Notes under the pieces: generated by a model
Seen by the model: only the letters and a program-made list of their open reading frames with translations
Told to the model about the DNA's origin: nothing
Database searches by the model: none
From: an endosymbiont 'TC1' of Trimyema compressum
Lineage (GTDB): Bacteria; Bacillota; TC1
DNA: 64,000 nucleotides
NCBI RefSeq assembly: GCF_001584725.1
Contig: NZ_CP014606.1
Coordinates: forward strand, 248,001-312,000
Reading direction: 5' to 3'
Translations under genes and position numbers: made by a program
Shown: positions 164 to 59,162 of the stretch, in pieces
How the letters are laid out: each line of letters starts with the position of its first letter
Position numbering within the stretch: the first letter of the stretch is position 1

Positions 164-1833
164 ATGAAAAGTGAAAAAATGAAGTCAGGAGTAGCTAAGG
201 CTCCCCATCGCTCATTATTTAAAGCATCTGGCTTAACAGATGAAGAGATAAAAAGATCTATAATTGGTATTGTAAATTCCCAAAATGATATTGTTCCAGG
301 ACATATTCATTTAGGTGCAATAGGTGAAGAGCCGTTAAAGCTGGGGTTCGTATGGCTGGCGGCGTGCCTTTACAATTTCATACAATTGCAGTTTGTGATG
401 GCATAGCTATGAACCATACTGGTATGAAATATTCCCTTATAAGTAGAGAGCTTATTGCAGACACAATTGAAGTAATGGCCAGTGCTTATACCTTTGATGG
501 ATTAGTATTTATTCCAAACTGCGATAAAGTTGTGCCAGGCATGTTAATGGCGGCTGCCAAACTGAACATCCCTTCTATTTTCATTAGTGGTGGTGCTATG
601 TTACCAGGAAAACATAAAGGTAAAAAATAAGTTTAACAGATATGTTTGAAGCTGTTGGTTCAGTAGCAGCAGGTAAAATTGATGAATCTGAACTCTGTGA
701 CATGGAAAATTCCGCCTGTCCTACTTGTGGTTCTTGTTCAGGGATGTTTACAGCAAATTCTATGAACTGTTTAAACAGAAGTTATTGGTATGGGATTACC
801 AGGCAATGGTACAATACCAGCCGTTTATTCAGAGCGAATCCGTTTAGCAAAAACTGCAGGTATGAGAAATATTAGATTTAGTTGAAGAAGATGTGAAACC
901 AAAAGATATTATGACTGAAGGGGCTTTCCATAATGCAATTGTTGCCGATATGGCTCTTGGTTGTTCAACTAACACTGTTTTACATTTACCAGCAATTGCT
1001 CATGCAGCAGGATTTGATGTTGGCTTTGAGACCCTTAATGATATTGCTCAAATTACACCTCAAATTTGTAAGTTGGCACCTGCAGGAAATCATTTTATTT
1101 CCGATTTATATGAAGCCGGTGGTATCCGAGGGGTTTTAAAATCTCTTGATAATGCTGAAGGATTGATTAGAAGAGAATGTTTAACCGTTAGTGGTAAAAC
1201 TGTTGGAGAGCAAATTGATAAAGCTTATATTTCAGATTCAGAAGTAATTCGCAGCAAAGAAAATGCTTATAGTCAAGATGGTGGATTAGCAATTCTTTGG
1301 GGTTCATTGGCTCCAGAAGGTTGTGTTGTTAAAAAAGGTGCTGTAGCTGAAGAAATGATGATTCATACTTGACCTGCTAGAGTTTTTGAATCAGAAGAGG
1401 AAACTGTAGAAGCTATTTTTAATAAAACCATAAAAGATGGGGATGTAATAGTAATTCGCTACGAAGGTCCTAAAGGAGGACCAGGTATGAGAGAAATGCT
1501 TTCACCAACAGCTGCAATTGCTGGTATGGGACAAGATAAGACTGTCGCCTTGATACAGATGGCCGTTTTTCAGGCGCTACAAGAGGAGCATCTATTGGAC
1601 ACGTTTCACCTGAGGCAGCATCTGACGGACCAATAGGTCTTGTAGAAGAAGGGGATTTAATTGAAATAAATATTCCTAAAAATTCACTTAATTTATTAGT
1701 AGAAAAATCAGTGCTAGAAGAGAGGGAGAAGCATCTTAGAAAGAAAGAAAATAATTTAGCTATTGGCTATTTAAAAAGATATGCTTCATTAGTAACTTCA
1801 GCTAATACAGGAGCGGTGTTTAAAGATGAGTAA
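164..1833 (+). pseudogene. ilvD: dihydroxy-acid dehydratase (IlvD), multiply broken
   Basis: Remnant of the enzyme that dehydrates dihydroxy-acids in isoleucine/valine synthesis. Family motifs are spread over different frames: the NCDKVVPGM iron-sulfur segment, [30 protein letters not shown], and [10 protein letters not shown] near the C-terminus. The lesions I see are frameshifts near 350, 630, 772, 866 and 1540, plus a TGA at 1370-1372 where the family has Gly before PARVF (GGA to TGA). The start ATG follows GAGGTG. The end overlaps the ilvB start by 8 bases, an old operon arrangement. With six lesions the gene cannot be functional. Confidence 0.93.
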
Positions 1834-3400
1834 TAAGTTATACCCGGGTGCAGATATTATTTTAAAATCACTTGAAATGGAAAAAGTTAAAATAGTTTTT
1901 GGCTATCCAGGAGGCAGTGTGTTGCCATTATATGATTCCTTATATCATAATGATAATATTAAGCATATATTAACACGTCATGAACAAGGCGCAGGTCATG
2001 CAGCAGATGGTTATGCTAGGTCAACTGGTAATACAGGCGTAGTTTTTGCAACTAGTGGACCTGGTGCTACAAACTTAGTAAGGGCAATAGCAACTGCGCA
2101 AATGGATTCTATTCCAATGGTTGTTGTTACAGGACAGGTACTGAGAGACGCTATTTAGGTAAACAAGCTTTTCAGGAAGCTGAAATTGTAGATATTGTTA
2201 AACCTATAACGAAATATGCAGTAATTGTACAGCGTGTTGAGGATTTAGCAAAAGAGATTAAGAAGACTTCTAGAATTGCTAATACAGGTAGAAAAGGACT
2301 TGTATTAATTGATATTCCTAAAGATGTAATGATTGATAAGTGTCAATTTATGTATCCTTTAGAATCTCAGTTTAAAGCAGAACGCTGGGGAGAAAGTGAA
2401 AATAGATACCAGCGCAAGCAGGAGGTGTTCTTAAAAAAGCGAAAAGACTACTTCTTTTTGTCGGTGGTGGTGCTAAAGATGCAGTAGATGAAGTTGAGAA
2501 GTTGGCTGAAAAGCTGAAATCACCCGTTATCTATAGCTTAATGGGCAAAGGTGTTTTAGATGATAATCATCCATTAAATATTGGTATGGTTGGCATGCAT
2601 GGTACGGGTGCTGCAAACTATGCAGTTCATCATTGTGATCTTTTATTTGCAATAGGTGTTCGTTTTGATGATAGACAGACAGGTGATGAAAATTTCTTTG
2701 CTAAAAGTGCAAGAATTATTCATTTAGATATTGATAGAAAAGAATTTAGTAAAAATATTAGAGCCGATGTTGCTTTATATGATGATAGTGCCTTAGGTTT
2801 ATTTAAACTTTTAAGAGTTATAAAAAGAGAGGATTTTGAACCTCAAAATCCTTGGATTGATCAAATCTCTGAGTGGCAACACAATCATCCATTAAAATTT
2901 GAAGCTGAAGGTAGCATTAAGCCTCAAGAAATTCTTAATGCCATAAATATACTTACAAAAGGCGCTGCTATTATGACAACAGAAGTAGGGCAACATCAAA
3001 TGTGGGCGGCCCAGTATTTTAAAACAAATGACCCTAAGAAGTTTATAACTTCGGGTGGTTTAGGAACTATGGGATTTGGTTTACCTGCATCGATTGGCGC
3101 ACAATTAGGCAATCCTAAAACATTAACTATAGCCTTAGCTGGAGATGGCAGCATTCAAATGAACAGCCCCAAGAGCTAATGACTATTAGTGCTTGTAAGC
3201 TACCCATTAAAATTGTTGTTGTTAACAATAAGAGTTTAGGTATGGTGCGCCAGTGGCAAAAACTCTTTTATGAAGAAAGGTATTCACATACTTTATTTGA
3301 AGCAGAATCTCAACCAGACTTTATGACTTTAGCTAGAGCTTATGGCATTCCAGGTGTGCAAATTACTGAAAGAGAAAGGTTAGTTGAAGACTTAGAGACG
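1826..3400 (+). pseudogene. ilvB: acetolactate synthase large subunit (IlvB), broken and 3'-truncated
   Basis: Remnant of the thiamine-diphosphate enzyme for the first common step of branched-chain amino acid synthesis. The N-terminus reads [13 protein letters not shown] and [15 protein letters not shown], with the ThDP-contacting Glu in the second motif. GDGSIQMN and NNKSLGMVRQWQ mark the C-terminal ThDP domain. Frameshifts occur near 2140 (after TGQV), 2425 and 3165. At 3400/3401 the gene runs into an IS fragment, so roughly the last 70 codons of the family length are gone. It follows ilvD with an 8-base overlap, so both steps were one operon and both are lost. Confidence 0.93.
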
Positions 3401-3957
3401 GCCTTAATCTTAGATGGGCCAATACGTCTCTTAGTAAGATGACAAATCTCCGAGAATAAGCTGACGGAGTTTTTAATTCTCAATAGTTCTAGGAGAAAGT
3501 TTTTCCGAAAAGTATTTGTAATAGGAGCTGCGGTTCACTTTAAGGACATGACAAAGAAAAGAGATAGCGTGCTGAAAACGAAGGGTATGAACAGCCATTA
3601 ATCTTTGTCTGAGTGAGGCGTGAATATGGCAATTGCTTTTTTTAAAATGATATTTTCCTCCTAGAGTCGAGCATTACGCTTTTGAAGATCCTTAATCTGC
3701 TTAGCGGTTAGAATAGTATCATCATCAATTCTAACCTGAGAATAAAGTTTAATCCACTTGTGTAAAGCAGACATGGAGACACCATATTCTTTAGAAAGTT
3801 GGGATTGAGTTTTACCGTTTTGGTGTAAATTAACAATACTTTTTTTAAATTCTTCATCGTATTTCTTGTAATTATTCATAATTTTATCCTTTCTTATGTG
3901 TCTACTTATTTAAAACATGTTTCACTTTTTCCTGTCTACTTTTTTAGTATATGTCCA
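3401..3957 (-). mobile_element. IS3-family element, left-end fragment (copy A)
   Basis: 557 bp matching the first 557 bp of the complete copy at 5795-7059, in reverse orientation. The outer end is the terminal TGTCCA (complement of TGGACA). It carries orfA (3879 down to 3661, with an in-frame TAG after NARL) and the start of orfB. The inner break is inside orfB and abuts ilvB directly at 3400. A one-sided deletion therefore removed both the rest of the IS and the end of ilvB. Confidence 0.93.
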
Positions 3958-4744: not shown

Positions 4745-5092
4745 GGGGATGTACTGGTTTCGACGGAGGAATGGAAATACTAGTTGCAGTTTAGGGTGAA
4801 TCCGCCTATTAACGGATTAACAAAATTTAAACGCTAAAAATAATAAATTAGCATTAGCTGCCTAAAGTGGCTACATCATCAATTATCTTCCTGCGGGTAA
4901 TTGTATGGTGTCAAATTAATGCAGGAACCCTTTTCTTTTTTCCTCAAGAAGAAATAAGGTAATTAGAGGATCGTTTGTAATCAGCCTGTCTATAGGCTCA
5001 GTTGCGAACTAAAAACAATATATAGACTATAACTGTAGAAACTGGTATGAAAATTTTTTCGGACAGGGGTTCGACTCCCCTCATCTCCACCA
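4745..5092 (+). ncRNA. ssrA: tmRNA (SsrA)
   Basis: Transfer-messenger RNA that rescues stalled ribosomes and tags the peptide for degradation. The 5' end starts GGGGATGTACTGGTTTCGAC and the 3' end carries the T-arm GGGGTTCGACTCCCC followed by CTCCACCA, pairing with the 5' GGGGA to form the acceptor stem. The tag frame at 4833-4865 encodes AKNNKLALAA followed by TAA, with the expected small apolar ending. Length about 348 nt. CCA is encoded. The gene looks intact and sits between two inverted IS copies. Confidence 0.95.
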
Positions 5093-5794: not shown

Positions 5795-7059
5795 TGGACA
5801 TATACTAAAAAAGTAGACAGGAAAAAGTGAAACATGTTTTAAATAAGTAGACACATAAGAAAGGATAAAATTATGAATAATTACAAGAAATACGATGAAG
5901 AATTTAAAAAAAGTATTGTTAATTTACACCAAAACGGTAAAACTCAATCCCAACTTTCTAAAGAATATGGTGTCTCCATGTCTGCTTTACACAAGTGGAT
6001 TAAACTTTATTCTCAGGTTAGAATTGATGATGATACTATTCTAACCGCTAAGCAGATTAAGGATCTTCAAAAGCGTAATGCTCGACTCTAGGAGGAAAAT
6101 ATCATTTTAAAAAAAGCAATTGCCATATTCACGCCTCACTCAGACAAAGATTAATGGCTGTTCATACCCTTCGTTTTCAGCACGCTATCTCTTTTCTTTG
6201 TCATGTCCTTAAAGTGAACCGCAGCTCCTATTACAAATACTTTTCGGAAAAACTTTCTCCTAGAACTATTGAGAATTAAAAACTCCGTCAGCTTATTCTC
6301 GGAGATTTGTCATCTTACTAAGAGACGTATTGGCCCATCTAAGATTAAGGCTCTTCTTTCCTATGACTATGGCATCAACATCAGTATTGGTAGAGCGAGC
6401 CGCCTGATGACTGACATGAATCTTCCTAAAATGCCTACTATCAAACTTCGGTTTATTCATCCGAGGTCTATTCCCAATTTTGATTGCCCTAACTACCTAA
6501 ATCAAAATTTTAATGTTCCTCAGCCCAATCAAGTCTGGGCTAGTGACATTACCTATATTAATTTAAATGCCTCTTTTGCTTATCTCTGTGTTATTATGGA
6601 TTTATTTTCTCGTAAAATTATTGCTTGGAAGCTCTCTCTTAAAATTGATACTTCTCTTGTTAAGGATACTTTTATCAAAGCCTTTTATTCTCAAAAACCT
6701 TCTACTTCTCTTATTTTTCATTCTGACAGAGGTTCCTAATATACTTCTTTTATCTTTAGAAAGCTCCTTGATTCTTTTGGTATCATTCAATCTTTTTCTA
6801 AGCTTTCTCATCCTTGGGACAATGCTGTCGTTGAGTCCTTTTTAAATATATGAAAAAAGAAGAAATTCTTCGTAGGTCTTTTTCTTCCTTTGCTCAAATT
6901 AAGCTTTCCTGCTTTGAACACATTGAGGGCTTCTACAACCCCCTATACGTCCCCACTCTGCTAATAACATTCTTTCTCCTAATTCCAAAGAAGACTATTT
7001 TTTCACTTCTATTAAAACTTAATTTCACTTTTTCTATCTACTCTATTGACATTCTTCCA
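5795..7059 (+). mobile_element. complete IS3-family element (copy B)
   Basis: 1265 bp with imperfect terminal inverted repeats: left TGGACATATACTAAAAAAGT, right end (complement) TGGAAGAATGTCAATAGAGT, then shared AAAAAGTGAAA. It has the two-frame transposase layout of the IS3 family. Three bases flank each side as TTT and AGC, so no target duplication is seen. It has cut an InlB-repeat gene on its right. The other complete copies (31064-32328 and 57898-59162) are the same length and encode identical peptide segments. Confidence 0.95.
5873..7022 (+). pseudogene. IS3-family transposase OrfA/OrfB, disabled
   Basis: OrfA (from 5873) is an HTH protein: [22 protein letters not shown], then a coiled-coil leucine segment interrupted by TAG at 6089-6091 where Glu is expected; the frame would otherwise end at 6154. 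An A-rich slippery run lies near 6109-6115. OrfB (from ATG 6154) is the DDE integrase: WASDITYI (first Asp), SDRGS (second Asp), NAVVESF (Glu). It carries TAA at 6277, a frameshift near 6300, TAA at 6737-6739 (Gln in DRGSQYTS) and frameshifts near 6845 and 6945. No active transposase can be made without readthrough or suppression. Confidence 0.92.
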
Positions 7060-7350
7060 AGCTAATGTATATGTTATGTCAATTTTTTCCCATACCGCAT
7101 ACAAAGTAACATCACTTGTTCCCATTGTAAATAGTGCTTCATCAGTATACTCTATATTTCCATCTTCTTGTGTTGACCAACCTATAAAAGTATTTTCATC
7201 ACTTAAAAATTCATTTTTTGGTAAATTTTGACTTTCTCTTTCAATAAGGGTAATAAGGTTCATTATTCCTTGTCCTGATGTTCCATTAAAGCTTACTGTA
7301 TGCTTATTTTGTTGCCATTGGGCATATAAGGTTGTATCATAACCTAGCAT
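7060..7350 (-). pseudogene. InlB/Listeria-Bacteroides repeat surface-protein fragment
   Basis: About 95 residues with two copies of the InlB B-repeat signature: TTLYAQWQ followed by TVSFNGTSGQG, and FIGWSTQEDGN followed by VTLYAVWEK. Such repeats are found in large cell-wall or secreted adhesin-type proteins of Firmicutes. Both ends are missing: the downstream side is cut by the IS at 7059 and I see no start, signal peptide or anchor upstream. It is a fragment of a once much longer gene. Confidence 0.75.
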
Positions 7351-7465
7351 TGTTGATTATAAAAAAGTTTCAATAGAAGACTTTTATACAATATCTAGTT
7401 TAACACAATTAGTAAATCATAATATGAGGAATAAATATCATGACCAAAAAAATATGATTCCTTGA
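7343..7465 (+). pseudogene. C-terminal remnant of a gene translationally coupled to the ABC exporter
   Basis: An open frame with no start, ending ...QKNMIP and a TGA that overlaps the next ATG as ATGA (7463-7467). The coupled stop/start indicates a former operon gene directly upstream of the exporter. The 40 visible residues contain no cysteine and no recognised domain. I cannot say whether it was a precursor peptide, a second enzyme or something else. Confidence 0.4.
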
Positions 7466-9159
7466 TGAAATATTTACACTTAATTGTAAAGTCAGCCAAA
7501 TGGTCACTTCTTGGTTCTTTTGTTATTATGGTAATTGTTATGGTAATTAACATAGCATTGCCAGAAGTTATAAAACAGATTATTGATATAGGAATAGGTG
7601 AAAATAATAAAAAAAGTCCTTATTATCCTTTGTGCAACATACATTGTAGGAATAATATTTGCTAATGGGATTAATTTATTTTTAGATAATTTTTATGAAA
7701 AACTCAAATTAAAAATATCGACTAAATTAAAATTGAGCTTACTTAATAAATTATCAAAATCAGATGGATACTATTTATCTCGCCTAGAAACAGGAGATGT
7801 TTTGCGAATTTTAGATAATGATATTTTTCAAATAGAAAATTTTGGTATAAACATTATTTTTGAATTTATTACTAATGCGATAACAGCTATTGTTGTGTTT
7901 TTTATCCTAATGTTTATTAGTCCAATCTTATTAGGAGTTGTTTTAATAATTCAGGTTTTTACTTTTGTAATTCAAGATAAGATATCAAAAAAAGTAGAAG
8001 CAAGAATAAAACATATAAGAAAAATTGCAGGTGAACAGTCTAATCTTCAAGAACAATTTGTCTCAAATATAAAAGGAGTAACATTAACTAATGCGACAAG
8101 ATATTTTGAGAAAGTAATAAGAAAAAGCAAGGTGATTTTGTAGATGAATCCAAAAAAGTTAATTTATTAATTGCATTTCACTTACAATTTGCTAATACAA
8201 CAAGTTCAATAATTGTCATAGTTACATATTTTTTAGGTGGCTTAATGGTTATATCCAAGCAAATAACATTAGGATAATTAATTGCATTTGCACAGTATAT
8301 CACACTATTAATTGCTCCATGTATGTACTTTATTAAAGCAAATATTCAAATTAAACAGACTAATGTATCTTTGGATAGAATATATTCTGAATTTGACAAA
8401 ATTAAAATTTGCCAAGATTTAGCTAATAGTATTGAATTAAAAGATAATATTCAAAAAATAAAATTTTCAAATATTAATTTTGATTATGGAAAAGATGAGT
8501 GCACATTAGATAATTTTAACTTGGAAGTTTGTAAAGGAGAAACTGTTGCTCTCGTTGGAGAGAGTGACTGTGGAAAATCAACAGTGTTAAATCTTTTATA
8601 TCGACTTTGGGTGCCTAAAAGTGGAGAAGTTTTAATTAACGAAAAGAACTTTGAGTTATATACTATAAAATCAATTAGAGAGAAAATCTGCATTTTAAAT
8701 CAAGACCCTCTACTGTTTAATGCTAGCATACGGGAAAATATTCTTCTTAATAAATCAGAATTTTCAAATGACGGATTAAATCGATTTTTTTGGAAAACAG
8801 GTGTTGATTTATTAATGACTGAGCATCCGATGACAATAGGAGAACGGGGAAATAAGTTATCTGGTGGCCAAAAACAAAGAGTAGCAATAGCTAGGGCTAT
8901 GTTATCAAATTGTGATGTAATTATTTTTGATGAATCAACTTCTTCATTAGATAATATATCACAAAAAGAATTAATGACAAACTTAGAGGATTTATTTAAA
9001 GATAAAATTGTAATATTTATTGCTCATAGAATGGAAATAGCCAAATTTTCAGATAGAATTTATGTTATGAATGATGGAAGAATAATTGAAAGTGGCACTC
9101 ACAGTAATTTAATGAGGCAAAATGGGTTATACAAAAAAATTAATGAGGCACAAATATGA
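7465..9159 (+). pseudogene. ABC exporter (fused membrane and ATPase domains), broken
   Basis: A half-size ABCB-type exporter of about 565 residues. Six membrane segments occur in the first two thirds. The nucleotide-binding domain has Walker A GESDCGKST, signature LSGGQKQRVAIARAM, Walker B VIIFDEST and the H-loop in FIAHRME. There are frameshifts near 7612 and 8110, and a TAA at 8275-8277 (TLG-stop-LIAF, probably GAA to TAA). The conserved Gly in Walker A (GESGCGKST) is Asp. No C39 peptidase domain is present. It precedes a radical SAM gene by 13 bases, suggesting export of a modified peptide. Confidence 0.85.
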
Positions 9160-9172
9160 AAGGAAATTATAA

Positions 9173-10418
9173 ATGGTTATTGGGAATCATGTCGAAATAA
9201 TTGTTAATTTAGGGAAAGTTATTTTGGCAAATCGTGAAACTTGTGGTTGGATAAGAGTTTCAAATGAAGTTTATGAAATTTTGAAACAAATATTAGAGTT
9301 GGAAAATATTGCAACAATGAGTAAAGATTTATTTGATTCAGAAGAGGATTATTCATTTGCAAAAAGCACACTGGATAATCTTATAGAAATGAATATTCTT
9401 GTGCCAGAGAATTACCACAAAGTTGAAATGCATAAAATTATATCATTGCAACTGACAAATAATTGTAATTTGCGATGTACGCATTGCTGTGTTGATGCAG
9501 ATAATACAGTCTACTGTATAGATGATTTGCTATTTGAGCAGTGGCGCCTTATCATTGATAAAGAGTAATTGAATGGAATCCCGTAAATATAATGCTCAGT
9601 GGTGGTGAGCCAATGTTTCAGCAAGATTTTATAGAAATTTTATCATACCTATATGAACGATATGAAGGGAAAATAATACTTTCTACTAATTCGTTACTAA
9701 TCAATAATGATAATATTGCTGAACTTGTCAAAATGTGCGATAGTTTCGAAATAAGTGTTGATGGAATTGATGAATCTACATGTGCTCTTGTGAGAGGTAA
9801 AGGGGTATTTAATAAAGTATGCCAAAAAATCAATTTGCTGAAAGAAAGTGGGGCAAAGAACATAAATTTATCAATGGTTTTTTCAGATAAAAATGAGCAT
9901 TTAATGAATGCCTTTCGTGAGTTGAATGTAGCGTTAGGGACAACGCCAATTTGTAGAATCTTTTCTGCTATAGGCAGAGGCGCAAATAACCGTTTTATTT
10001 TTACTGAAAAAACTGAAGACGATATATATTTCCAAAAGAATACTTGAAACCAAATGGAGAACCATTTGGAATAACGACTTGTTCTGCAGGGAAAAATGAA
10101 TTAATTGTTGGAAATAATGGAGAGGTATATCCTTGTCCTAGTTATATGAATGAAAATTTTTCTATGGGAAATCTTTTGAATTTCAAGAAAATAAGTGATA
10201 TGCTAAAAGCCGATACTAATGATTATGTTTGTGAGCATGTTGGAAAAATACATCCTGCTAATTTAGAAGAGTGCTTAAATTGCAATGTAAAGTTGTTTTG
10301 TTGGACTTGTCCTGGGGAATTTAGAGATATAAAAACAAAAAAAGCATTCCAAAAAAGATGCGCTATTACAAAACCGATGTTACAAGAAAGGGTGTGGGAA
10401 AGCAAAATAATGTATTAA
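9173..10418 (+). pseudogene. radical SAM/SPASM peptide maturase with PqqD-like N-terminus, two frameshifts
   Basis: Residues 1-85 resemble a PqqD/RRE peptide-recognition domain. The radical SAM core follows with CNLRCTHC (CxxxCxxC iron-sulfur cluster) and MLSGGEP. The C-terminal SPASM region is Cys-rich (CSAGKNELIVGNNGEVYPCPSY, then CLNCNVKLFCWTCPGE, then CAITKP). Frameshifts lie near 9565 (between IDKE and VIEWNPVN) and near 10035. The start has AAAGGAA upstream. The layout (RRE-rSAM-SPASM next to an ABC exporter) is that of ribosomal-peptide maturation loci. I find no intact precursor peptide. Confidence 0.85.
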
Positions 10419-14390: not shown

Positions 14391-14472
14391 TTTTGTAAAA
14401 TCATAAAAAGTTTTTAAAGAGTATTGTAAGATGCTGTGAATTGATTTACAATTAAATTAACAAACTAAATAA

Positions 14473-14617
14473 ATAAGAGTTTTTAGTATTGGGAAAATGG
14501 TGAGAATCCATTACAGCCTCCGCTACTGTAAACACGGATGATGTTCTTAATATGCCACTGTCTCGGATGGGAAGGCAAGAACAGAATAGGATGTGTAAGT
14601 CAGGATATCATACTACA
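14473..14617 (+). promoter_or_regulatory. cobalamin riboswitch
   Basis: The order of conserved blocks is GGGAA..GGTGAGAATCC, ACAGCCTCCGCTACTGTAA, GCCACTG, GGGAAGGC, then AGGATG..AAGTCAGGA, as in the B12 element. It sits about 100 bases upstream of the importer operon and is followed by a terminator hairpin, so it should reduce btu expression when cobalamin is plentiful. Confidence 0.92.
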
Positions 14618-14671
14618 GGCTTAGACTGTATATTTCGGCAGGAGGTATATGACAGTTAGGTTAGTGATTTT

Positions 14672-17517: not shown

Positions 17518-18205
17518 TTTCATTTGAGAAAGTTAAAAAAGAAATTAATTCTGTAAATTATGAAGTTGGAGAGGCTATGACACAGCAGATTGATGGCTTG
17601 GCAAAACCCTTGGGTAGTTTAGGCTATTTGGAGAAAATGGCTGTTAGAATCAGTCGGATAACAGGGAAATTAGATAATCAATTGAAACAAAAGGCTATGA
17701 TTGTTATGTGTAGCGATAATTGTGTTTTTGAAGAGGGCATTGCCTCAACACCTCAAGAGCTTGGAAGAATGTCAATAGAGTAGATAGAAAAAGTGAAATT
17801 AAGTTTTAATAGAAGTGAAAAAATAGTCTTCTTTGGAATTAGGAGAAAGAATGTTATTAGCAGAGTGGGGACGTATAGGGGGTTGTAGAAGCCCTCAATG
17901 TGTTCAAAGCAGGAAAGCTTAATTTGAGCAAAGGAAGAAAAAGACCTACGAAGAATTTCTTCTTTTTTCATATATTTAAAAAGGACTCAACGACAGCATT
18001 GTCCCAAGGATGAGAAAGCTTAGAAAAAGATTGAATGATACCAAAAGAATCAAGGAGCTTTCTAAAGATAAAAGAAGTATATATCCAAGGTTGCCCTCTT
18101 CTTTTTAAGATAATGGATAGTGCTTTGGCACTAATGAAAGGTATGGGAACTCTTGATGGTGTAGCAATGGAAAAAGAGAACATGGTTGATTTAAGGAAAC
18201 AATAG
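17514..18205 (+). pseudogene. cobT: CobT (DMB phosphoribosyltransferase) split by an IS fragment
   Basis: CobT makes alpha-ribazole phosphate for the lower ligand of cobalamin. The first 83 codons (17514-17761, including DGLAKPLGSLGYLEKMAVRI) and the last 40 (18083-18202, GCPLLFKIMDSALALMKGMGT ending VDLRKQ) are present in different places. A 321-bp IS fragment lies between them. About 230 residues of the usual 355 are missing, including the catalytic region, so this is insertion plus deletion rather than simple insertion. The start overlaps the btuD stop. Confidence 0.85.
17762..18082 (-). mobile_element. IS3-family element, right-end fragment (copy E)
   Basis: 321 bp identical in layout to the right end of the complete element (equivalent to 6739-7059 of copy B, reversed). 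The terminal TGGAAGAATGTC is intact at 17762, and the fragment breaks just downstream of the DRGS motif region of orfB. The break abuts the cobT C-terminus. This is the mirror case of copy A, where the other end survived. Confidence 0.92.
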
Positions 18206-22619: not shown

Positions 22620-22718
22620 CTTGAGAAAAATATAACATTTGGAAACACTTATTAAAGATTGATTTTTATTCAATTTTACTATATTCTTATAAGTAAGAAC
22701 ATATTGGTGAATGAATAT

Positions 22719-22893
22719 CAGCAGGAGAGTGGTGAAAAGCCACACCGATGGAGCAACTTGTTAACAATGCGAGTTAATTGAGGAATCTCTCAGGTACAAG
22801 GTACTGTTGGTGGACACGAACTCTGGAGAGATCTCGCATGTGAGACACCAAAGAGAATAAGCGCTTAGATAGTGCAAAAGTCTTCAGGTAAAA
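22719..22893 (+). promoter_or_regulatory. tandem glycine riboswitch
   Basis: Two glycine aptamers in series. The first runs AGGAGAGTGGTGAAAAGCC..ACCGATGGAGCAA..AATCTCTCAGGTACAAGGTACTG; the second runs GGACACGAACTCTGGAGAG..ACACCAAAGAGAATAAGCGC..CTTCAGGTAAAAGGAC. It directly precedes gcvT. Such elements switch on glycine cleavage when glycine binds. Confidence 0.93.
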
Positions 22894-30540: not shown

Positions 30541-30552
30541 GGAGTGAGAATA

Positions 30553-30963
30553 ATGAAGACCCTAAGTGATGTAATTGAAGCCTATATTTTAGATATTATT
30601 AAAGGTAGTGAAAATGGATCTGTTCATTTAAAAAGAATGGATTTATCATTTAAATTTTCCTGTGTTCCCTCACAGATTAACTATGTTTTAAATACTAGAT
30701 TTACAATTGAGAGAGGTTATCTGGTAGAAAGTAAACGCGGTGGAGGTGGTTATGTGCAAATTGAAAAAATATCCGCTTCAGATATTCCTTCTTTTCTAAA
30801 GAAGATTGAATGTGTTTCAGGAGAAATGACCAGTATGATGGGGAAGAAAATTCTGGAAAGACTTGGAGAAGAAAAAATAATTACAGATAGAGGATTAGCA
30901 ATTATCTGGCAACTTATTAAAGATGAAAGTTTGCCAATTGATGATAAAAAAGGAAAGAAATAA
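30553..30963 (+). CDS. ctsR: CtsR, heat-shock transcriptional repressor
   Basis: A 136-residue repressor of class III heat-shock genes. The winged-helix DNA-binding part includes LSDVIEAYILDII, the FSCVPSQINYVLNTRF helix-turn-helix, and the glycine wing RGGGGYVQI. The C-terminal domain is short for the family (about 150). The start ATG 30553 follows AGGAGTG. It is intact, but its usual operon partners mcsA, mcsB and clpC are destroyed just downstream, so the remaining targets must be elsewhere (for example clpP or other operons). Confidence 0.92.
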   Translation: MKTLSDVIEAYILDIIKGSENGSVHLKRMDLSFKFSCVPSQINYVLNTRFTIERGYLVESKRGGGGYVQIEKISASDIPSFLKKIECVSGEMTSMMGKKILERLGEEKIITDRGLAIIWQLIKDESLPIDDKKGKK

Positions 30964-31023
30964 CATAAGAGCTATTATGATGAAAAATTTAATGGTTTTT
31001 TAGCTGGCGAAGGAGGAAACTAA

Positions 31024-31063
31024 AATGAAATGTCAATTATGTGGAAAAAATGATGCAAGCTAC
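31024..31063 (+). pseudogene. mcsA: McsA, first 13 codons only
   Basis: The start ATG behind AGGAGG encodes MKCQLCGKNDASY with the first CxxC zinc motif of McsA. The next base begins the IS. The rest of mcsA, all of mcsB and the front of clpC are absent. Confidence 0.75.
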
Positions 31064-32328
31064 TGGAAGAATGTCAATAGAGTAGATAGAAAAAGTGAAA
31101 TTAAGTTTTAATAGAAGTGAAAAAATAGTCTTCTTTGGAATTAGGAGAAAGAATGTTATTAGCAGAGTGGGGACGTATAGGGGGTTGTAGAAGCCCTCAA
31201 TGTGTTCAAAGCAGGAAAGCTTAATTTGAGCAAAGGAAGAAAAAGACCTACGAAGAATTTCTTCTTTTTTCATATATTTAAAAAGGACTCAACGACAGCA
31301 TTGTCCCAAGGATGAGAAAGCTTAGAAAAAGATTGAATGATACCAAAAGAATCAAGGAGCTTTCTAAAGATAAAAGAAGTATATTAGGAACCTCTGTCAG
31401 AATGAAAAATAAGAGAAGTAGAAGGTTTTTGAGAATAAAAGGCTTTGATAAAAGTATCCTTAACAAGAGAAGTATCAATTTTAAGAGAGAGCTTCCAAGC
31501 AATAATTTTACGAGAAAATAAATCCATAATAACACAGAGATAAGCAAAAGAGGCATTTAAATTAATATAGGTAATGTCACTAGCCCAGACTTGATTGGGC
31601 TGAGGAACATTAAAATTTTGATTTAGGTAGTTAGGGCAATCAAAATTGGGAATAGACCTCGGATGAATAAACCGAAGTTTGATAGTAGGCATTTTAGGAA
31701 GATTCATGTCAGTCATCAGGCGGCTCGCTCTACCAATACTGATGTTGATGCCATAGTCATAGGAAAGAAGAGCCTTAATCTTAGATGGGCCAATACGTCT
31801 CTTAGTAAGATGACAAATCTCCGAGAATAAGCTGACGGAGTTTTTAATTCTCAATAGTTCTAGGAGAAAGTTTTTCCGAAAAGTATTTGTAATAGGAGCT
31901 GCGGTTCACTTTAAGGACATGACAAAGAAAAGAGATAGCGTGCTGAAAACGAAGGGTATGAACAGCCATTAATCTTTGTCTGAGTGAGGCGTGAATATGG
32001 CAATTGCTTTTTTTAAAATGATATTTTCCTCCTAGAGTCGAGCATTACGCTTTTGAAGATCCTTAATCTGCTTAGCGGTTAGAATAGTATCATCATCAAT
32101 TCTAACCTGAGAATAAAGTTTAATCCACTTGTGTAAAGCAGACATGGAGACACCATATTCTTTAGAAAGTTGGGATTGAGTTTTACCGTTTTGGTGTAAA
32201 TTAACAATACTTTTTTTAAATTCTTCATCGTATTTCTTGTAATTATTCATAATTTTATCCTTTCTTATGTGTCTACTTATTTAAAACATGTTTCACTTTT
32301 TCCTGTCTACTTTTTTAGTATATGTCCA
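31064..32328 (-). mobile_element. complete IS3-family element (copy C)
   Basis: 1265 bp, the same termini as copy B in reverse orientation (TGGAAG at 31064, TGTCCA ending at 32328). The left flank is mcsA codon 13 and the right flank is the middle of clpC. The element therefore sits at the junction of a deletion of several kilobases, not at a simple insertion. Flanking triplets TAC and GAT do not match. Confidence 0.95.
31101..32250 (-). pseudogene. IS3-family transposase OrfA/OrfB, disabled (copy C)
   Basis: Same peptide segments as copy B: OrfA 32250-32032 with TAG after NARL; OrfB with the WASDITYI, SDRGS-stop and NAVVESF blocks in several frames. Every lesion of copy B is reproduced at the equivalent base. 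Confidence 0.92.
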
Positions 32329-33319
32329 GATATTGCCAAGATTGTTTCTGAATGGACTGGCATTCCAGTTGAAAATATGGAAAAATCTGAAACTGATAAA
32401 CTAATGAATTTAGAGTCTACTTTACATCAGAGAGTAATTGGTCAAGATGAAGCCATTACTGTACTTTCAAAAGCAGTTAGAAGAGCAAGATCTGGACTTA
32501 AAATCCTAAGAGACCATCAGGTTCTTTCTTATTCCTTGGACCTACTGGTGTCGGAAAAACTGAAACGGCTAAAGCTTTAGCAGAATACTTATTCGGCAAA
32601 GAAGAAGATATGGTTCGTTTCGATATGTCAGAGTTTATGGAGAAACATACTGTTTCAAAATTAATTGGTGCTCCTCCAGGATATGTAGGATTTGATGATG
32701 CATGTCAATTAACTGAAGCTGTCAGAAGAAATCCATATAGTGTTATTCTATTTGATGAAGTTGAGAAAGCCCACCCAGATGTATTTAACATTATGCTCTA
32801 ATTATTTAATGATGGTAGACTTACAGACGGATAAGGTAGAACCGTAAACTTTAGAAATACAGTTATTATTATGACTTCTAACGTTGGCGTTGATAAAATT
32901 CGCTATATTAATAAATTAGGGTTTAATAATGATGTTGATAGTGAGTCTGAAGAAAAACAAAATAGAGAAAAAATAATGAGTGAAGTCAAAAATACATTTA
33001 GACCAGAATTCATTAATCGTTTAGATGATATTTTAGAGATGTTGAAAAAAGAGTAATGGAACTAGGTATTCCTTCATTGGAAATTAAAGATACCTTGAAG
33101 AAAAAATTGTTAGATGATGGTTTCGATCCAGAGTATGGCGCAAGACCGCTTAAGCGTTCAGTTCAAAGCTTTGTTGAAGACCCATTAGCAGATGCAATCT
33201 TAAGTAGCACTATTGAAGAAGGGGAAAAAGCAATTCTTAATTATAAGAATGAAAGAGTAATTGTAACCAATGCTGGAGATGATGATATAGAAGAAATAAT
33301 TGAAGTAGTTGAAGAATAA
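32329..33319 (+). pseudogene. clpC: ClpC C-terminal half, broken
   Basis: Remnant of the AAA+ unfoldase partner of ClpP. It begins at [17 protein letters not shown], so the N-domain and first ATPase domain (about 470 residues) are missing. The second ATPase domain shows [16 protein letters not shown] (Walker A), [25 protein letters not shown] and [15 protein letters not shown] (Walker B). Lesions: a frameshift near 32507, TAA at 32800 and 32832 where Gln is expected (ML-Q-LFNDGRLTDG-Q-GRTV), and a deletion plus frameshift near 33040 before the C-terminal DPEYGARPLKR. Confidence 0.9.
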
Positions 33320-33359
33320 ACCTTTTATTTAGATGTTTTTTCTGATACAATACAGTGAG

Positions 33360-33445
33360 ATACAGGGGAGCTGGTAAACCAGCTGAGAGTTAAGCGTGAC
33401 TTAAGACCCTTTAACCTGATCTGGATAATGCCAGCGTAGGGAGAA
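33360..33445 (+). promoter_or_regulatory. TPP (thiamine pyrophosphate) riboswitch
   Basis: THI-box blocks CAGGGGAGCTG, GCTGAGAG, GACCCTTTAACCTGATCTGG and AATGCCAGCGTAGGGA are all present in order. It precedes thiT and a terminator. Confidence 0.95.
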
Positions 33446-33455
33446 AAAGCATTTA

Positions 33456-33488
33456 ACAGCTTTATCCTGACGGATAAAGCTGTTTTTT
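33456..33488 (+). terminator. TPP-riboswitch terminator
   Basis: AACAGCTTTATCC, loop TGAC, GGATAAAGCTGTT followed by TTTTT, immediately before the thiT ribosome site. Confidence 0.88.
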
Positions 33489-57897: not shown

Positions 57898-59162
57898 TGG
57901 AAGAATGTCAATAGAGTAGATAGAAAAAGTGAAATTAAGTTTTAATAGAAGTGAAAAAATAGTCTTCTTTGGAATTAGGAGAAAGAATGTTATTAGCAGA
58001 GTGGGGACGTATAGGGGGTTGTAGAAGCCCTCAATGTGTTCAAAGCAGGAAAGCTTAATTTGAGCAAAGGAAGAAAAAGACCTACGAAGAATTTCTTCTT
58101 TTTTCATATATTTAAAAAGGACTCAACGACAGCATTGTCCCAAGGATGAGAAAGCTTAGAAAAAGATTGAATGATACCAAAAGAATCAAGGAGCTTTCTA
58201 AAGATAAAAGAAGTATATTAGGAACCTCTGTCAGAATGAAAAATAAGAGAAGTAGAAGGTTTTTGAGAATAAAAGGCTTTGATAAAAGTATCCTTAACAA
58301 GAGAAGTATCAATTTTAAGAGAGAGCTTCCAAGCAATAATTTTACGAGAAAATAAATCCATAATAACACAGAGATAAGCAAAAGAGGCATTTAAATTAAT
58401 ATAGGTAATGTCACTAGCCCAGACTTGATTGGGCTGAGGAACATTAAAATTTTGATTTAGGTAGTTAGGGCAATCAAAATTGGGAATAGACCTCGGATGA
58501 ATAAACCGAAGTTTGATAGTAGGCATTTTAGGAAGATTCATGTCAGTCATCAGGCGGCTCGCTCTACCAATACTGATGTTGATGCCATAGTCATAGGAAA
58601 GAAGAGCCTTAATCTTAGATGGGCCAATACGTCTCTTAGTAAGATGACAAATCTCCGAGAATAAGCTGACGGAGTTTTTAATTCTCAATAGTTCTAGGAG
58701 AAAGTTTTTCCGAAAAGTATTTGTAATAGGAGCTGCGGTTCACTTTAAGGACATGACAAAGAAAAGAGATAGCGTGCTGAAAACGAAGGGTATGAACAGC
58801 CATTAATCTTTGTCTGAGTGAGGCGTGAATATGGCAATTGCTTTTTTTAAAATGATATTTTCCTCCTAGAGTCGAGCATTACGCTTTTGAAGATCCTTAA
58901 TCTGCTTAGCGGTTAGAATAGTATCATCATCAATTCTAACCTGAGAATAAAGTTTAATCCACTTGTGTAAAGCAGACATGGAGACACCATATTCTTTAGA
59001 AAGTTGGGATTGAGTTTTACCGTTTTGGTGTAAATTAACAATACTTTTTTTAAATTCTTCATCGTATTTCTTGTAATTATTCATAATTTTATCCTTTCTT
59101 ATGTGTCTACTTATTTAAAACATGTTTCACTTTTTCCTGTCTACTTTTTTAGTATATGTCCA
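57898..59162 (-). mobile_element. complete IS3-family element (copy D)
   Basis: 1265 bp, reverse orientation, same termini as copies B and C (TGGAAG at 57898; TGTCCA ending at 59162). The flanking triplets are AAC and AAA, so no clean target duplication. It lies 38 bases upstream of the groESL -35 box, so the chaperonin promoter was spared. Confidence 0.95.
57935..59084 (-). pseudogene. IS3-family transposase OrfA/OrfB, disabled (copy D)
   Basis: OrfA spans 59084-58866 with the shared TAG after NARL. OrfB is spread over several frames with the shared TAA before YTS in the DRGS motif and shared frameshifts. The peptide segments are identical to copies B and C. Confidence 0.92.

Follow-up and report, generated by a model that had tools for sequence, protein, structure and literature searches.

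Shared lesions, absent target repeats and common flanks among the copies of a dead IS3-family element in the endosymbiont 'TC1' of Trimyema compressum

In the parts of PMC3196728 and PMC3004938 that cite Cordaux 2009, highly similar IS copies with multiple stops and frameshifts are described in Wolbachia wBm, and their likeness is ascribed to gene conversion. The element studied here, from the endosymbiont 'TC1' of Trimyema compressum, resembles the wBm case, as far as those accounts describe it, in its many similar broken copies, in the lack of an intact copy, in the decaying genome of a host-dependent bacterium, and in that gene conversion is proposed. The IS family and the host lineage are different. 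It also differs from the wBm case as described there in that the TC1 lesions can be ordered, adjacent target repeats are absent, flank words are common to several loci, and mismatch repair appears to be lost. Amoebophilus asiaticus resembles TC1 in that its small genome carries a large IS load and in that direct repeats are mostly absent (from 83% of the full-length IS copies); however, it retains intact transposase genes, decay varies by copy, and gene conversion could largely be dismissed there (PMC3196728).

In anatomy the TC1 element is like the IS150-like members of the IS3 family, with HTH_Tnp_1 in orfA, rve and DDE in orfB, TG...CA ends, and an A7 stretch ahead of the orfB frame, whereas it has no functional transposase and no target repeats, and the nearest relative found is 49% identical over the core. 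MITEs are well known as dead elements that are moved in trans. The TC1 element shares with them and with other non-autonomous IS derivatives its many copies and the lack of a working transposase of its own, but it is full length and not internally shrunk, no helper for it was found in the assembly, and target repeats are missing. We therefore describe the element as a variant of something already known; its time order is clearer, and the signature at its junctions is unusual. What is new is the sharing of flanks, whose mechanism we infer.

The window is the whole stretch of 64,000 nucleotides that was analysed. The initial annotation had recognised five pieces of one element in it, and this proved right: the three full copies are mutually identical across 1,265 bp, and both fragments match them at 100%.

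5795-7059, + strand: IS copy of 1,265 bp (L016), ends TGGACATATACT...CATTCTTCCA, without a flanking direct repeat; left flank ...GTATTTTT, right flank AGCTAATG...
31064-32328, − strand: identical IS copy (L015), between a ctsR-mcsA start and a clp remnant
57898-59162, − strand: identical IS copy (L014)
3401-3957, − strand: IS fragment, element positions 1-557
17762-18082, − strand: IS fragment, element positions 945-1265, right flank AGCTCTTG

A profile search found the IS3 anatomy, with HTH_Tnp_1 in orfA (E = 5.3e-11) and rve in orfB (E = 8.3e-19). The element has intact transposases among its homologues, that of L033 for example, and it has imperfect inverted terminal repeats with a TG start and a CA end (TGGACATATAC...AAAGTAGACAGG / TGGAAGAATGTC...GAGTAGATAGA). 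The stops and frameshifts that had been pointed out in it are real, and all of them could be located in the copy at 5795-7059.

5873-6091, + strand: orfA remnant with HTH_Tnp_1 (frame 1 translation, Pfam), ended by TAG
6089-6091, + strand: this TAG (element 295-297), at which a relic, L090, reads through
6269-6739, + strand: longest orfB stretch left (156 aa), which retains the greater part of the rve (DDE) domain
6277-6279, + strand: TAA stop in frame, in the N-terminal region of orfB (element 483-485)
6301-6302, + strand: extra G causing a frameshift (element 507-508), absent from the relic L090
6737-6739, + strand: TAA (element 943-945) ending the 156-aa orfB stretch
about 6839-6846, + strand: missing A (frameshift) just past the catalytic E of NAVVESF, compared with the intact homologue in L033
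about 6939-6943, + strand: indel in a C run (frameshift) ahead of RPHSANN, compared with the intact homologue in L033

Six lesions thus separate the element from intact transposases: TAG295, TAA483, the extra G507, TAA943, the missing A near 1047, and the indel near 1146. No frame of the element encodes a whole transposase, and the functional fused OrfAB protein that is a trait of IS3 elements was not found, given these lesions and the lack of an intact copy in the assembly. The element is a transpositionally dead insertion sequence of the IS3 family (IS150-like). With regard to an alternative genetic code, the intact genes within the window end normally. The fragment at 17762-18082, which had been said to have the same lesions where it overlaps, starts inside the third stop and covers the last two lesions only.

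We searched the genome (1.62 Mb in two contigs, 96.9% complete, 0.03% contaminated) with the element as query. There were 30 essentially complete copies, 18 of them letter-identical, plus fragments, so that the case is larger than had been claimed. TAG295, TAA483, the extra G507 and both later frameshifts (near 1047 and near 1146) were present in 30/30 copies. Position 943, where the third stop begins, gives TAA in 24 copies and CAA in the other six. Apart from L030, which additionally lacks about 19 bp close to its right end, full copies vary from the reference at three positions only: 5 (C/T), 314 (T/-, where a T run varies in length by one T) and 943 (T/C). L086 and L087 have a 93-bp internal deletion in common together with 183 bp of right flank, and one of these two copies also has a 23-bp duplication. 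The non-functional copies are more alike than independent decay would permit, and none of the full-length copies shows the independent decay that had been named as counter-evidence.

The order of the lesions can be read from L090, a truncated relic (element 1-782) with an unbroken orfA. It differs from the other copies by exactly two absent lesions, TAG295 and the extra G507, and it does carry TAA483, which was present in every copy seen. Because L090 is without TAG295 and the extra G, the lesions came stepwise and spread through the family. The sequence comparison places TAA483 first, TAG295 and G507 next, and TAA943 last; this last lesion would be still spreading and has reached 24 of the 30 copies. 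The initial annotation held that the lesions are the same wherever copies overlap; this is right within the window and does not hold genome-wide, because of L090 and the six CAA943 copies.

Three explanations had been proposed for the multiplication of so damaged an element: movement in trans by an intact copy, homogenisation by gene conversion, and expression through suppression or readthrough. This interpretation is supported in part, and gene conversion fits best among the three. Readthrough or suppression was rejected, since three frameshifts would have to be bypassed besides the stops. More broadly, the element might still drive itself by readthrough, by suppression, or by a split enzyme made of the orfA remnant and a catalytic stretch of 190-odd residues that is open in the CAA943 copies. 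In those six copies a 211-codon frame spans all three catalytic residues, and orfA has kept its HTH domain. For the normal fused product, however, three frameshifts must be bypassed together with two or more stops, and the catalytic stretch, which lacks an evident ribosome site and the C-terminal part, has since been lost in 24 copies. We consider a self-driven element extremely improbable.

Gene conversion received the best support, from the apparently mosaic variants, the stepwise lesions, the identical fragments, the common flanks, the rearrangement between copies, and an intact recA. All four combinations of variants occur at the site pairs 5/314 and 314/943, as exchange between copies predicts. 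Both pairs include site 314, and its mosaic pattern could be recurrent slippage because it is located in a T run; the pair 5/943 shows three combinations only. We hold, with some reserve, that the dead element has probably been kept alike by RecA recombination and gene conversion and not by jumping.

Recent amplification in trans would be another way to obtain so many similar copies. An intact copy, or a related transposase with matching ends, would have moved a succession of dead master copies, and would since have been lost or lie outside the assembly. The near-zero divergence among the 30 copies agrees with this, the stepwise variants fit successive masters, MITEs provide the precedent, and an assembly that is 97% complete could lack a plasmid or a minor copy. 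However, the search of the assembly for an intact copy found none, nor was there another intact transposase of IS3 type. A search for rve returned the element's own family and a few short truncated remnants of other IS3 elements, with no intact IS3/IS30/IS481-type integrase core beyond these. All 35 left ends found with three or fewer mismatches are of this element's family, so a helper with matching ends was not found either. A second element with the same ends was considered and rejected; the match in L083 is what remains (45 bp) of a right end, next to another dead IS. No close relative was found in 60 related genomes, and the GTDB species contigs hold none closer than 49% identity over the core. 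A helper may have been lost earlier or may lie outside the assembly. Moreover, amplification in trans accounts for the identity of the copies and not for their missing target repeats. It fits less well than concerted evolution, and we regard it as unlikely.

Transposition of an IS3 element is expected to leave a flanking direct repeat of 3-5 bp. An adjacent 3-bp direct repeat was found in 0/30 copies, which also speaks against recent movement by an intact copy in trans. Target repeats shifted by a few bases showed no significant excess. At L030, judged from homologues, there is perhaps a displaced 3-bp repeat (CAA), with possibly two extra bases (AC). The triplets at the right ends, read outward-in, were GCT (10), TAC (6) and GAC (4), and those at the left ends AAA (18) and GTT (5). 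If normal 3-bp repeats had merely been shuffled among the copies, the right-end set would equal the left-end set; the two sets differ, and this explanation was rejected.

Many copies at unrelated places have 6-12 bp of flank in common. Fifteen pairs of right flanks had at least 7 common bases, compared with expectations of 0.1 for random positions and 0.22 when the composition of each column is kept; there were also 15 such pairs of left flanks (expected 0.12 and 0.77, respectively). On the right, AGCCT was found in eight copies, three of them with AGCCTACAGC, GTAGCTT in five, and GTCAATTGT in two. On the left, TTTTGTATTTTT was found in two copies, TACCTTT in three, and ATTCAAAC in two. Several classes of words, together with non-target bases at L023 (see below), speak against a single target motif behind the common right-flank words. 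Four copies (L005, L016, L086 and L087) have right flanks in common over 183-352 bp, far over chance, and their left flanks differ. One of these flanks lies in the window.

7060-7365, + strand: right flank of the copy at 5795-7059, of which about 306 bp is near-identical in L005 and L086, and 183 bp in L087

This common flank is part of a family of repeat-rich surface-protein genes, which may contribute to the sharing. The flanks of L005, L010, L019, L023 and L027 are in or beside repeat-rich surface-protein genes (named from their sequence only), and the repeats of the family are Listeria-Bacteroides-like and leucine-rich.

Copies were found within one gene at L009, at L017 (an ATP-NAD-kinase-type gene) and at L030 (an amidohydrolase). 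One gene is interrupted with almost no loss at L009, L017 and L002, and the gene halves at L009 and L030 have hardly decayed. No homologue from which to read the empty site was found for the L009 protein. Several other copies have different genes on either side, or DNA is absent there (mutL, ctsR-mcsA/clp and purC). The mutL gene is cut by L007 after residue ~90; the middle is absent, and the gene becomes recognisable again in its C-terminal region. The purC gene is cut at the IS, after which an Rhs gene follows, and the rest of purC was not found anywhere in the genome. The third case lies in the window at 30544-33340, which holds ctsR, 13 mcsA-like codons, the IS and half of a clp gene, so that part of a stress operon is absent.

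31025-31063, + strand: first 13 codons of a putative mcsA-like gene (MKCQLCGKNDASY), cut by the IS, with the following DNA absent
32329-33340, + strand: C-terminal half of a ClpB/ClpC-type gene, frameshifted, which starts directly at the IS (NCBIfam ClpB profile from position 532)

The name mcsA-like is our own reading of the 13 codons, which have no profile match. A search for McsB at ctsR-mcsA/clp gave no match, and the control search was also without a match where McsB is expected.

The copies L023 and L018 lie in inverted orientation, with about 2.3 kb between them (G000 C1:77929-82733). The left flank of one and the right flank of the other together restore another element, IS-C, and the flanks look like the ends of a ~2.3 kb inversion. 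IS-C (L088, L089, L090, L092) is a second IS3-type element whose transposase is also broken; two of its copies show no difference over 882 bp, and a target repeat is absent from L090. L089 and L090 supply the uninterrupted sequence of IS-C, which also gives the best empty site, CTGTGAAAGGTATATTC. In the left flank of L023, CTGTGAA is followed by TTT, as against CTGTGAAAGG in L089 and L090. Because the empty-site comparison reads otherwise, the three bases adjoining the IS at L023 did not come from the target. At L013, a GMP synthase gene ends in a GGC codon where the intact gene of this genome and all relatives have arginine or lysine. There are two GMP synthase genes, a decayed one ended by the IS (L013) and an intact one (G000 C1:312057).

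Such junctions could conceivably come from copying without any transposase, in which the IS and a few bases of donor flank would be joined elsewhere at short matches, in a recA+ cell without mismatch repair. The route would be template switching or double illegitimate recombination, replacing from zero to several thousand target bases. The nested sharing of flank words and the absent target repeats agree with this, as do the missing target DNA between flanks at mutL and ctsR-mcsA/clp, the bases at L023 that are unlike the empty site, and the possible extra AC at L030. However, the exact 1,265-bp ends of nearly all copies fit transposition, or conversion within old copies, and not random end points, the known empty sites are too few to gauge short matches at the joins, and the literature searched held no such IS amplification. 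From the sequences, an increase of this kind may explain the edges best, yet it needs more steps, and we consider it quite improbable. If copies do multiply without a transposase, the reading of IS counts in reduced genomes changes.

Chimeric flanks at short common words are also what bad gap closing would be expected to give. If copies had been filled with one consensus and flanks misjoined at short overlaps, the near-identity of all copies would follow as well. However, the assembly has two contigs only, with 96.9% completeness and 0.03% contamination, and both flanks are from one gene at L009, L017 and L030. The individual combinations of variants, the 93-bp deletion found twice, the 23-bp duplication and the 19-bp deletion are unlike a pasted consensus. 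The collapse to one consensus that had been named as a possible refutation is unlikely, since copies retain variants of their own, and we judge an assembly artefact very improbable.

The setting for recombination was also explored. The recA gene is intact (355 aa), whereas mutS is frameshifted and has stops in the ATPase region. With mutL broken too, mismatch repair appears to be lost, as read from these genes; the mutS/mutL region lies at G000 C1:1006629-1009557 (L007, L120, L133). The loss of mismatch repair raises one-base indels and relaxes the barrier to recombination between imperfect matches. It would explain the many one-base indels in the genes of this genome.

Concerted evolution, our preferred reading, could have proceeded as follows. 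While a transposase existed, the element would have been spread by ordinary transposition. After the enzyme's death, RecA-dependent homologous recombination between copies would have overwritten the copies with one another, and successive lesions would have swept the whole set: TAA483, then TAG295 and G507, and now TAA943 in 24/30. The same recombination may have joined, deleted and inverted DNA between copies. The least certain step is that repair synthesis at times overran the end of the donor copy, by a few to a few hundred bases into its flank, and that the product was rejoined at a short match in the recipient. Such an overrun would remove target repeats and give unrelated copies common flank words, and the loss of mismatch repair would favour such sloppy recombination.

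Some observations do not fit this reading easily. L009, L017 and L002 look like clean insertions without a repeat rather than like eroded repeats, and the hardly decayed gene halves at L009 and L030 could mean recent insertion. The overshoot step has no before/after pair here, and the mosaic evidence leans on the T-run site, with the pair 5/943 alone giving three combinations.

This is a clear natural case of a mobile element that outlives its own enzyme, with its lesions dated relative to each other. The absent target repeats and the common flank words would be a record of repeat recombination reshaping a shrinking genome. Such a record of junctions would help to separate true transposition bursts from the concerted evolution of dead copies.

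The window also contains genes split by frameshifts, at 893-3179 and 7598-10418 (an ilvD-like gene, an ilvB-like gene and an ABC exporter that has a radical SAM gene next to it), which are a sign of widespread pseudogenes. In addition, a tmRNA (tag AKNNKLALAA) is present at 4745-5092, a cobalamin riboswitch at 14452-14630, a glycine riboswitch at 22712-22816, and a TPP riboswitch at 33354-33459.
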